Positions 24,872 to 55,632 of a stretch of DNA of 64,000 nt are shown in pieces. The stretch is taken from contig NZ_QPLT01000004.1 in NCBI RefSeq assembly GCF_003666015.1, positions 62,001 to 126,000 on the forward strand, in the 5' to 3' direction. Every line of letters begins with the position of its first letter. Positions within the stretch are counted from its first letter, which is position 1. The stretch is from Halorubrum sp. Atlit-26R (GTDB lineage Archaea; Halobacteriota; Halobacteria; Halobacteriales; Haloferacaceae). The notes under the pieces are model-generated. The model was not told the DNA's origin. It saw only the letters and a program-made list of their open reading frames with translations, and searched no databases. Both the position numbers and the translations under genes were made by a program.

Positions 24872-24956
24872 GCGCGGGTTGCCGAGCCAGGCCAAAGGCG
24901 TAGCGCTTAGGACGCTATCCCGTAGGGGTCCGCCGGTTCAAATCCGGTCCCGCGCA
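24872..24956 (+). tRNA. tRNA-Leu (UAG)
   Basis: Acceptor GCGCGGG pairs with CCCGCGC (24949-24955), discriminator A at 24956. The anticodon stem TAGCG/CGCTA holds loop CTTAGGA, anticodon TAG. A long variable arm (class II) is present and the T loop is TTCAAAT. No CCA is encoded. Confidence 0.95.
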
Positions 24957-29813: not shown

Positions 29814-30216
29814 TTATAAGTAGCTCCCAGTCGATCGGTGGTGGCCACCTACAAAGCCCCAGCAGCTCGGCTCTAAGCAAGTATTACTGGGCCGATTACC
29901 GCGTTCTGGCCAGCCGTTCTCTTATAAATACCTGACAGTGGATCGGCGGCGACCACCGCCAAAGCCCCAGCCGTGAGGACTCGATGCGCTCGTTGCGGTC
30001 CTCGGCGCTCACTTCGTTCGCGCCTGCGGTCCTTAACGTCGCGCGTCTTCGTCCTCACGGCTGCCCCTTTGAGTCCCGCCCCGCACCGCTCCGCCCCGCA
30101 CCTCAGGCCTCCCCAGCCTCGCGGCTCGCTCGGGGCTCCCTCCGGTCGCCCCTCGCTCACCGCTCCCTCGCACGCGCTCCTCGCGCCCTCCGGGCGCTCG
30201 GAGGCGCGCGCCACCG
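29814..30216 (+). repeat. Structured dispersed element, copy A (candidate ncRNA)
   Basis: Two leader units, each with a TATA box (29814-29820 and 29922-29928) and an AAAGCCCCAGC box (29853 and 29961). The body has stem P1 CAGCCGTGAGGAC (29968-29980) with GTCCTCACGGCTG (30051-30063). The conserved linker GGCTGCCCCTTTGAGTCCCG begins at 30059. Stem P2 is GGGGC/GCCCC (30132-30136/30148-30152), stem P3 is a GC-rich hairpin, and the end is GCCACCG. It is the most divergent of three copies. Coding frames across it share no protein signature. Confidence 0.7.
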
Positions 30217-40793: not shown

Positions 40794-41133
40794 TTTATAA
40801 ATCGCGAAGCGACGCGAACGCCACCGAAGCCCCAGCCGCTCGGCCGTACGTAGTCGCTTATAAACCGACGGCCGACACGAACGCCATCGAAGCCCCAGCC
40901 GGGAGGCGGGCGCACGCTCGCTGCGCTCCTCACTCGGTCGCTCACTGCGTTCGCTCCCGCGTTGCGGTGCTTGCGTCGCCTGCGCCCGCCTCCCGGCTGC
41001 CCCTTCGAGTCCCGCCCCGCACAGCACCGCGGCCTCACGCCTCCCCAGCCTCGTCGGCCTCCCTCCGGTCGGCCGACTCCCTCGCGCGTGCGACTCGCGC
41101 CCTGTCGGGCGCTCGTCGGCACGCGCCACCGCA
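40794..41133 (+). repeat. Structured dispersed element, copy B (candidate ncRNA)
   Basis: Leader TATA boxes at 40794-40802 and 40858-40864, each followed by a GAAGCCCCAGCCG box. Stem P1 has a 19-bp perfect helix: 40896-40914 with 40981-40999. The linker GGCTGCCCCTTCGAGTCCCG follows from 40995. Stem P2 is GTCGGCC/GGCCGAC (41053-41059/41071-41077). Stem P3 is GCGCGTGC/GCACGCGC (41084-41091/41119-41126) with inner GCGCCC/GGGCGC. The end is GCCACCGCA. It lies between a membrane protein gene and a PLP-fold gene. Confidence 0.75.
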
Positions 41134-48565: not shown

Positions 48566-48638
48566 GCCGGAGTAGCTCAGCTGGCAGAGCGATTCCTTCG
48601 TAAGGAATAGGTCGGGGGTTCAAATCCCCCCTCCGGCT
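48566..48638 (+). tRNA. tRNA-Thr (CGU)
   Basis: 73 bases. Acceptor GCCGGAG pairs with CTCCGGC (48631-48637), discriminator T at 48638. The anticodon stem ATTCC/GGAAT holds loop TTCGTAA, anticodon CGT. The T loop is TTCAAAT. No CCA encoded. Confidence 0.95.
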
Positions 48639-53461: not shown

Positions 53462-54061
53462 ATGGACCTGTCGGGGCTGCGTCGACACGCGCCGCAGTCG
53501 CTCGCCGGGCGGCGGCAGGCCGCGGTGCTGGCGCCGGTGATCGCGCGCGACGGCGAGGCCCACCTGCTCTTCACCAAGCGCGCCGCGCACCTCGGCGAAC
53601 ACCCCGGACAGATGAGCTTCCCCGGCGGCGGCCGCGAGCCGATCGACCGGACGTTGACGGACACCGCGCTGCGCGAGGCCGACGAGGAGGTCGGGATGCG
53701 GCCGACGGAGGTCGACGTCCTCGGTCGGATCGACGACACGCGCACCTCGTCGCAGTACGCGGTCCGCCCGTTCGTCGGCGTCGCACCCGACCGCGAGTAC
53801 GTCCCCGACGAGTCGGAGGTCGCGGAGGTGGCGATCCTCTCCGTCGACGCGCTCACCGACCCCGCGAACTACGAGTCGGAGCGCCGCGTCGGCCACCCGG
53901 AGTACGGCGACCACCGCGTCCACTACTTCCACGTCGGCGGCTACACCGTCTGGGGCGTGACGGGCCGGATGGTCGTCCAGCTGTTGGAGCGGACGACCGA
54001 CTGGCGCGCGCCCGCGGAGCCGGACCGCGTGGTCGGCGCGGACGCCGAACTGCCGATTTGA
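53462..54061 (+). CDS. Nudix hydrolase (CoA pyrophosphatase-like)
   Basis: 199 residues. The Nudix box GGGREPIDRTLTDTALREAD then EEVGM (about 56-80) is preceded by LFTKRAAHLGEHPGQMSFPG, the pattern of the NudL/CoA-pyrophosphatase subgroup. Divergent from proS. Confidence 0.88.
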   Translation: MDLSGLRRHAPQSLAGRRQAAVLAPVIARDGEAHLLFTKRAAHLGEHPGQMSFPGGGREPIDRTLTDTALREADEEVGMRPTEVDVLGRIDDTRTSSQYAVRPFVGVAPDREYVPDESEVAEVAILSVDALTDPANYESERRVGHPEYGDHRVHYFHVGGYTVWGVTGRMVVQLLERTTDWRAPAEPDRVVGADAELPI

Positions 54062-54107: not shown

Positions 54108-54446
54108 GTTGACTGTGGATTGACCGCGACAGCCGCCAAAGCCCCACCTGCTCGTTTATAAATCGTTGACTTCGGATCGACCGCGACAGCCGCCAAAGCC
54201 CCAGCCGCGAGGACGGCGCACGCTCGCTGCGCGCTTCAGTCGCTCACTTCGTTCGCTCCTTCCAGTGCTTGCGTCGCCTGCGCCGTCCTCGCGGCTGCCC
54301 CTTTGAGTCCCGCCCCACACGGCACCGCACCGCAGCCTCACACCTCCCCAGCCTCGTCGGCGGTCCTCCGCCTCGCTCCGGACCGCCGACTCCCTCGCGC
54401 GTGCTGCTCGCGGCCTACCGGCCGCTCGCAGGCACGCGCCACCGCA
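54108..54446 (+). repeat. Structured dispersed element, copy C (candidate ncRNA)
   Basis: Two direct-repeat leader units (54108-54146 and 54165-54203), the second under a TATA box TTTATAAAT (54155-54163). The 19-bp perfect P1 helix pairs 54202-54220 with 54279-54297. The linker GGCTGCCCCTTTGAGTCCCG follows from 54293. P2 GTCGGCGGTCC/GGACCGCCGAC pairs 54356-54366 with 54380-54390. P3 GCGCGTGC/GCACGCGC pairs 54397-54404 with 54432-54439. It ends GCCACCGCA. A new TATA (TTTATAAG, 54451) lies just after, for the M42 gene. Confidence 0.75.
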
Positions 54447-54573
54447 GACGTTTATAAGTAATTCTCGTCCCCGTTCACGGCTATTTAAATACCGGACCAG
54501 TCGCGGTTCGGCGAAGCCCGACGGTCGTGCCGGATCCTGCGGACCTTTGTCGCTGGCGCGGACAGGTGGAGAC

Positions 54574-55632
54574 ATGCCACGCGAGTTCGACTTCGACTTC
54601 GACCTGCTCCGAGAGCTGACCGAGGCCCGCGGCGTCCCCGGCTACGAGGACGACGTCCGCGAGATCGTCCGCCGGGAGTTCGCGGACAGCGTCGACCGCG
54701 TCCGGACGGACGCGATGGGCAACGTCGTCGGGACGATCGAGGGCGACTCGGACTACTCGGTCGCCGTCGCCGCCCACATGGACGAGATCGGCTTCATGGT
54801 CCGCCACGTCACCGACGAGGGGTTCGTCCAGGTCGACCCGCTCGGCGGGTTCGACGCCCGCGTGCTGCGCGCGCAGCGCGTCACCGTCCACGGCGACGAG
54901 GACCTGACGGGCGTCATCGGCTCCGTCCCGCCGCACACGCTCACGGAGGAGCAGATGGAGAAGGACGACGAAGTGAAGGACGTGTTCATCGACCTCGGCC
55001 GCGACGCCGAAGCGGTCGAGGAGGCGGTGAGCGTCGGCGACCTCGTCACCCTCGACCAGACCACGACGCGGATGGGCGACCGGGTCACGGGGAAGGCGCT
55101 CGACGACCGGATCTGCCTGTTCGCCATGCTGGAGGCCGCCCGGCGTATCGACGAGCCCGACGTGACGGTCCACTTCGCGGCGACCGTTCAGGAGGAGGTC
55201 GGGCTCCGGGGCGCGCGGGCGCTCGGCGTGGACGTCGACCCCGACCTCGCCGTCGCCCTCGACGTCACCGTCGCCAACGACGTGCCCCAGGTCGGCGACC
55301 CGGCCGACGCAGTCACCGAACTCGGCGAGGGGACGGCGGTGAAGCTGAAGGACTCCTCGGTGATCACCAGCCCGAAGGTTCACAGCCGGCTCACCGAGGT
55401 GGCCGAGGCGGAGGCGATCGACCACCAGCACGAGGTGCTTCCCGCGGGCGGCACCGACACCGCGGGGTTCCAGAACACGGCGGGCGCGAAGCCCGTCGGC
55501 GCCATCTCGATCCCGACCCGCTACCTCCACACGGTCACCGAGACTGCCGACGCGGGCGATGTTGAGGCGACGATCGACCTGCTGACGGCCTTCTTGGAGT
55601 CCGAGACCGGCGAGCACGACTACACGCTGTAG
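54574..55632 (+). CDS. M42-family aminopeptidase/endoglucanase-like metallopeptidase
   Basis: 352 residues. Metal residues lie in VAVAAHMDEIGFMV, GKALDDRICLFAML, VQEEVGLRGARAL, LDVTVANDVP and a final PTRYLHTV, matching M42 (TET-like) peptidases. ALPHA of the PA-like lid (ARVLRAQRVTVHGDEDLTG) is present. Probably trims small peptides as a cytosolic multimer. Preceded by element C and its TATA. Confidence 0.9.
   Translation: MPREFDFDFDLLRELTEARGVPGYEDDVREIVRREFADSVDRVRTDAMGNVVGTIEGDSDYSVAVAAHMDEIGFMVRHVTDEGFVQVDPLGGFDARVLRAQRVTVHGDEDLTGVIGSVPPHTLTEEQMEKDDEVKDVFIDLGRDAEAVEEAVSVGDLVTLDQTTTRMGDRVTGKALDDRICLFAMLEAARRIDEPDVTVHFAATVQEEVGLRGARALGVDVDPDLAVALDVTVANDVPQVGDPADAVTELGEGTAVKLKDSSVITSPKVHSRLTEVAEAEAIDHQHEVLPAGGTDTAGFQNTAGAKPVGAISIPTRYLHTVTETADAGDVEATIDLLTAFLESETGEHDYTL

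Follow-up and report, generated by a model that had tools for sequence, protein, structure and literature searches.

The question raised by positions 54108-54446 is whether this locus encodes a structured RNA or is one member of a dispersed DNA repeat. It is the third of three copies (A, B and C) within the window, i.e. the whole 64-kb stretch of DNA that was analysed. An earlier note on this DNA had put it forward as a candidate new ncRNA family, with a structured mobile repeat as the alternative. Our analysis yielded no proven RNA gene, and the evidence from hairpin cassettes favours the mobile repeat, which is supported by ∼180 copies in both orientations, polymorphic orthologous sites, and hairpin cassettes that move and flip. 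With moderate confidence, we therefore assign the copies in the window to a haloarchaea-wide family of modular palindromic dispersed repeats that resemble an old mobile element rather than RNA genes, and whose hairpin cassettes are exchanged. No earlier description of the element was found in Rfam or in the open literature (searched by motif letters and for haloarchaeal REP-like families).

Anatomy of copy C and of the family

The order of parts previously described for copy C (leader box, stem, linker, two further stems and a terminal GCCACCG) was found again in the sequence, and copies A and B, at 29.8 and 40.8 kb, show the identical arrangement. The features of the window are as follows.

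29850..30216, +: copy A, with boxes at 29853 and 29961 and P1 at 29960-30071, then P3, P4 and the end
30299: Obg/YGR210-like GTPase gene, downstream of copy A (Pfam)
40795..41132, +: copy B, of the GAAG/CTTC subfamily, with P1 at 40888-41007, then P3, P4 and the end
41209: PLP-dependent enzyme gene, downstream of copy B (Pfam)
53462..54061, +: NUDIX-domain gene, directly upstream of copy C (Pfam)
54108..54151, +: upstream tandem unit of copy C, with degenerate box AAAGCCCCAC at 54138; direct repeat of 54165-54208
54155..54163, +: TATA-like TTTATAAAT within the 57-bp unit of copy C (from sequence)
54165..54204, +: hairpin-proximal tandem unit of copy C, with box AAAGCCCCAG at its end
54194..54305, +: hairpin cassette P1 of copy C (CAAAG, CCC/CCC loop, long stem, apical domain, CTTTG)
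54293..54312, +: fixed linker GGCTGCCCCTTTGAGTCCCG of copy C (180 genome matches at ≤3 mismatches)
54356..54390, +: hairpin P3 of copy C (GTCGGCGGTCC...GGACCGCCGAC; from fold and stem statistics)
54397..54439, +: hairpin P4 of copy C, with a conserved TC/TC internal loop (from fold and covarying triplets)
54440..54458, +: right end of copy C, CACCGC and AT-rich TTTATAAG
54574..55632, +: M42 aminopeptidase gene, directly downstream of copy C (Pfam)

The leader of copy C contains a direct repeat of two 44-nt units, 57 nt apart (54108-54151 and 54165-54208), with 89% identity, and both of these 57-bp-spaced units terminate in AAAGCCCCA. Box and TATA belong to one repeated 57-bp tandem unit, which had been overlooked. 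The TATA box itself stands for copy C and is found in ∼67% of last units across the host genome, but it was not seen in the units inspected from other haloarchaeal families and is not a family-wide trait. The arms of P1 form a 30-nt inverted repeat (54194-54223 and 54276-54305; complementarity 87%); the main stem is present as claimed, but rather than a plain 19 bp it comprises 5 bp, a 3×3 CCC/CCC internal loop and then ∼19–21 bp. The linker was matched three times within the window, always on the + strand, vs. 0.01 matches expected from shuffles. Copy C folds far better than shuffled sequence, as RNA on either strand (z = −5.0 on +, −6.2 on −) and also as DNA (z = −4.8). No functional theme was seen among the genes downstream of the three copies (GTPase, PLP-dependent enzyme, aminopeptidase). 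The sole two Rfam matches in the window were tRNAs at 24872-24956 and 48566-48638, both on the + strand.

The anatomy of the family was compiled over 100 copies of the host genome. The element spans ∼340 bases with several hairpins and consists of 1–7 tandem ∼57-bp units ending in AAAGCCCCAG, P1 (a ∼26-bp hairpin whose fixed 3×3 CCC/CCC loop is closed by AAAG/CTTT), fixed linkers, P3, P4 and an AT-rich right end. The box most often lies 103 nt upstream of CCCCTTTGAG and recurs farther upstream with a 57-bp period; in the GAAG subfamily, which carries CTTC on the opposite arm, the period is 63/66 bp. An AT box was located within 40 nt past the end of P4 in 46 of 70 copies; a control stretch gave 0 of 70. 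The non-pairing loops are fixed in both P1 (3×3 CCC/CCC) and P4 (TC/TC). The number of tandem units varies between orthologues, and boxes farther from the hairpin are more degenerate; this gradient was considered as proof of stepwise insertion but dropped, as ordinary end-decay of arrays fits equally well.

Several variants of this layout were also observed. Extra perfect mini-palindromes are nested in P1 (L165, L170, L218, L251, L288, L318) and in P3 or P4 (C6:167290, L242, L245), for example AAAGGCGC-GAA-GCGCCTTT and GAGACGCC-TTC-GGCGTCTC, with fixed spacers CGTGATG, GATGAC and GAACCACG; they recur across genera and would represent a second layer of hairpin insertion. In another family (f17, L256-L286), P1 carries a different apical domain (CAGCGACATATCC...GGATAGGGGTCGCTGAGACGACC) instead of the Halorubrum type, and the P1 domain has tandem ∼34-bp units with small palindromes on its 3′ side. 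At L274, L276 and L285 the P3-P4 module is inverted relative to P1, which indicates that the two parts are separable elements.

Abundance, distribution and genomic context

The host assembly comprises 574 contigs, of which 1.6 Mb was analysed in stretches, with genes called using a home-made codon model. The 180 linker matches in the host genome fell on both strands (97 + and 83 −), and a reversed-pattern control produced none; the claim that copies always lie on the + strand therefore describes the window (3 of 3) but not the genome. When a covariance model was built from the three window copies only, as the earlier note had proposed, its 165 rows of hits in 1.6 Mb (E≤1e-4) came from slightly more than 100 loci, with the surplus rows representing the same hairpins read on the complementary strand; members were also matched in other families, down to E = 1e-16. 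Named matches were nearly all from Halorubrum, with one from Halobellus, and all 18 congeners sampled carry the element at 10–191 copies each. A sister motif, GCCCCTTTCAGTCCCRCC (≤1 mismatch), occurs in 191 of 293 haloarchaeal genomes at 0 to ∼170 copies, with a patchy distribution within genera. The core common to the families is GAAAGCCCC-hairpin-GGCCCCTTTCAGTCCC.

In some genomes of one other haloarchaeal family, the element forms head-to-head pairs 36–46 bp apart. Symmetric pairs were seen at five loci of another family (L347, L353, L355, L363, L369), where the outer ends match within a locus and differ between loci (e.g. ACAGCAAGAAAG / CTTTCTTGCTGT) and one half may be without a hairpin.

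None of the 107 copies checked overlapped a called gene, all being intergenic. One alternative reading is a cis-acting DNA or RNA signal, such as a bidirectional terminator, a 3′-end element or a chromosome-organising site like gyrase-binding BIMEs. Neighbour orientations (->E-> 36, ->E<- 34, <-E<- 21, <-E-> 12) show an avoidance of divergent promoter regions, co-directional upstream genes are favoured in Halorubrum (70:33), and in the collections searched plasmid matches were few and weak while phage matches were absent, all of which would suit such a signal. The orientation bias was not repeated in other families (17:31), and a 3′-UTR or terminator role was rejected on that ground; likewise, regular spacing as a chromosome-organising signal was rejected because copies are spaced in a random-like manner (CV 0.97). 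Orthologous sites are, moreover, often empty beside the same downstream gene. We regard a cis-acting signal as improbable.

High copy number, both orientations, intergenic location and polymorphic presence are the behaviour of a dispersed mobile repeat. Among 30 Halorubrum-type genomes, site C was full in 6, partial in 2 and empty in 22, and site A was full in 15, partial in 6 and empty in 9, the empty sites including genomes in which the neighbouring gene is 92–94% identical. At the empty sites located, the flanks have diverged around the break and the element ends are inexactly defined, and no target-site duplication was readable. Identity between whole-element paralogues does not exceed 92%, so a recent burst of complete copies is ruled out. 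In a small orthologue set (24–36 sites), 36 copies of other species were compared with the host genome, which has an element at the corresponding site for ∼26 of them, 24 in the same orientation, so the positions are old. Such retention is unusual for a merely selfish repeat and counts against the mobile-repeat reading. The constancy of the internal loops (CCC/CCC, TC/TC) and of the linkers shows that selection does more than preserve a palindrome; taken with the old retention, it suggests that the folded DNA or its transcript is still being recognised.

Stem pairing and the exchange of hairpins

Stems that vary yet stay paired between fixed linkers had been read as the mark of an RNA under structural selection. 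As a pattern this was recovered: across 40 copies, and counting cells that are non-independent, 98.9% of stem cells were paired, both partners had changed in 15 of 26 pairs, and covariation scored 0.316 vs. 0.099 after shuffling. RNA families that evolve stepwise normally show many G-U intermediates. Here these were almost absent, with 116 two-sided changes vs. 1 one-sided change (40 copies). Because the stem changes arrive as complete cassettes, the argument for RNA fails as it was stated. The cause of the extreme pairing statistics is mostly something other than stepwise RNA covariation: for the most part, paired changes came in with a cassette or through DNA-level inversion.

P1 cassettes (109–112 nt) at unrelated loci are 97–100% identical, while the adjoining 3′ domains share 64–83% and the far flanks ∼54%. 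C1:280123 and C3:36847, for instance, share all 112 nt of P1, vs. an identity of 83% for the 3′ domain, 69% for the upstream unit and 54% for the flanks; the P1 of copy C is 98.2% identical to that of the unrelated C1:228056, with 3′ domains 75% alike. Modules were also compared at orthologous sites with flanks 80–94% identical, and P1, P3 and P4 were found to be replaced independently, each being either ∼1.0 identical or paralogue-like (∼0.7). Whole-element identity was 0.85 for orthologues and 0.84 for paralogues. Inversion was observed as well: the P1 of H. distributum L197 is an exact 90/90-nt inversion of that at the orthologous host site C6:94313, and the P1 interior is flipped in 9 of ∼200 copies.

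In the reading favoured here, every copy lines up DNA hairpin cassettes (P1, P3, P4) between fixed linkers and has a variable array of ∼57-bp units at its left end. We infer that hairpins are exchanged via ectopic gene conversion, template switching or a trans-acting enzyme, and the fixed linkers and stem feet may serve as homology or recognition in that exchange. Flips of P1 would occur because its arms are mirror images, and complementarity would be maintained because both arms travel together. A more specific proposal, which we hold only tentatively and think unlikely, is that P1 is an independently mobile, invertible DNA cassette docking between half-sites AAAGCCCC and GGGGCTTT via a dedicated recombination system that has yet to be described. 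At L347 and L369, sockets without a hairpin (AAAGCCCC-CG-GCCCC) do occur; such a system could have left these as footprints, along with the flips and the identical cassettes in unrelated sockets, and the tandem 57-bp units could be scars of its action. No copy was found to contain an ORF inside P1, nor was an ORF-bearing version of the element found.

The same observations can be viewed from the side of RNA. In a multi-copy structured ncRNA family, the loci would be transcribed from the TATA (+) or from the other strand, the RNA would act in trans or bind protein, and cassette exchange would be the concerted evolution of a multigene RNA family. The promoter geometry is plausible on the + strand in Halorubrum, where the TATA centre lies ∼27 nt before the conserved GAACACCTCC; the fold z is ∼−5 to −6, pairing is very strong, internal loops and linkers are fixed, and positions are conserved between species. 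Yet the fold z is equal on both strands (∼−5.1 on + and −5.3 on −), the TATA is restricted as described above, and the flipped P1 interiors of nine copies would place the reverse complement of the apical loop in the RNA. The element also matched no Rfam family (best weak hit 17.6 bits vs. a cut-off of 62). Consensus pairs read on the + strand hold 32 G-U vs. 72 A-C cells (three data sets), the opposite of what a + strand RNA would leave. Unpaired linkers share the same transition bias on the + strand (G>A 8.7% per G vs. C>T 1.2% per C, all Halorubrum copies), so that the skew is no proof of a − strand RNA either, and the choice of the − strand by G-U/A-C counts was dropped for this reason. Raw MFE likewise favoured the − strand in 97 of 97 copies, a difference that dinucleotide shuffles abolish. 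A + strand RNA is thus without support from the strand tests, and we find the RNA family doubtful as a whole. Either as an RNA or as a bound DNA site, the element may nonetheless have a role, given the constancy of its linkers and non-pairing loops and the retention of many of its positions.

Relation to known mobile elements

The dispersed palindromic repeat favoured here has partial counterparts elsewhere. REP, BIME and REPIN sequences, which accompany RAYT transposases in bacteria, amount to hundreds of intergenic hairpins per genome with compensatory-looking stems and old positions. These traits are shared by the element, which differs in having several hairpins and tandem units per copy and in needing no RAYT-like Y1 protein. 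MITEs are similarly non-coding and dispersed, and the terminal AAAG/CTTT complementarity of the element recalls them; a parent transposase and a target duplication were not found for it, nor were terminal inverted repeats of a known transposon (Y1 and TnpB families searched). In chloroplast hairpin-loop inversions, a spacer between short inverted arms flips while the arms stay, as a by-product at single sites; the flip between arms is the same here, but is found in members of a dispersed family. From a different domain of life, mitochondrial double-hairpin elements and GC clusters resemble the element in being GC-rich mobile hairpins in intergenic DNA.

The closest haloarchaeal parallels come from Haloquadratum. 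Palindrome-associated transposable elements (PATEs) of Haloquadratum walsbyi derive from and flank IS605-type transposons; like our element they are haloarchaeal, non-coding, intergenic, palindrome-rich and of high copy number, have no detectable target duplication, and are targets of further hairpin insertions (PMC3119063). The IS605 derivation sets them apart, no such link having been found for the element; conversely, tandem arrays at the left end, fixed linkers whose cassettes can be exchanged and flipped, and a family-wide spread do not figure in the description of PATEs (PMC3119063). Small mobile repeats (SMRs) of Haloquadratum are also short, transposase-free palindromic repeats of unknown mobilisation, but are homogeneous in sequence with terminal inverted repeats, whereas the element keeps its linkers and changes its stems (PMC3119063).

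These likenesses bear on whether the element derives from IS200/IS605 transposons (as a PATE) or is of REP/RAYT type, with its hairpins as the substrate of a Y1 HUH transposase that moves it. Hairpins lie near both ends of the element, and such sub-terminal palindromes, intergenic dispersal and undetected target duplication resemble PATEs (PMC3119063); genome G000, moreover, carries 3 Y1 transposases and 24 TnpB loci. Of those 24 TnpB loci, only one has an element no more than 1.5 kb away, where the stretch examined comes to its edge, the 3 TnpA loci are without any of the linkers, and no ends shared with IS605/IS1341 transposons were found at these 24 TnpB and 3 TnpA loci. Four congeners (G004, G033, G044, G068) hold 57–101 copies without Y1_Tnp, so that the transposase of a REP/RAYT system is missing from genomes rich in the element. 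Left-end tandem boxes and cassette exchange are not PATE features. Movement by a Y1 transposase is quite unlikely in our estimation. Although its behaviour is that of a mobile palindromic repeat and resembles theirs, we have not filed the element as a MITE, PATE or REP because the defining features tested for these classes were not found.

For covariation-based RNA discovery on repeats, these data carry a warning, as whole-hairpin exchange can also yield perfect covariation. If the exchange is enzymatic, it would represent a new DNA recombination activity in archaea. In Halorubrum-type genomes, few intergenic sequences are as abundant as this element, and related forms are present in approximately two-thirds of the haloarchaeal genomes sampled.
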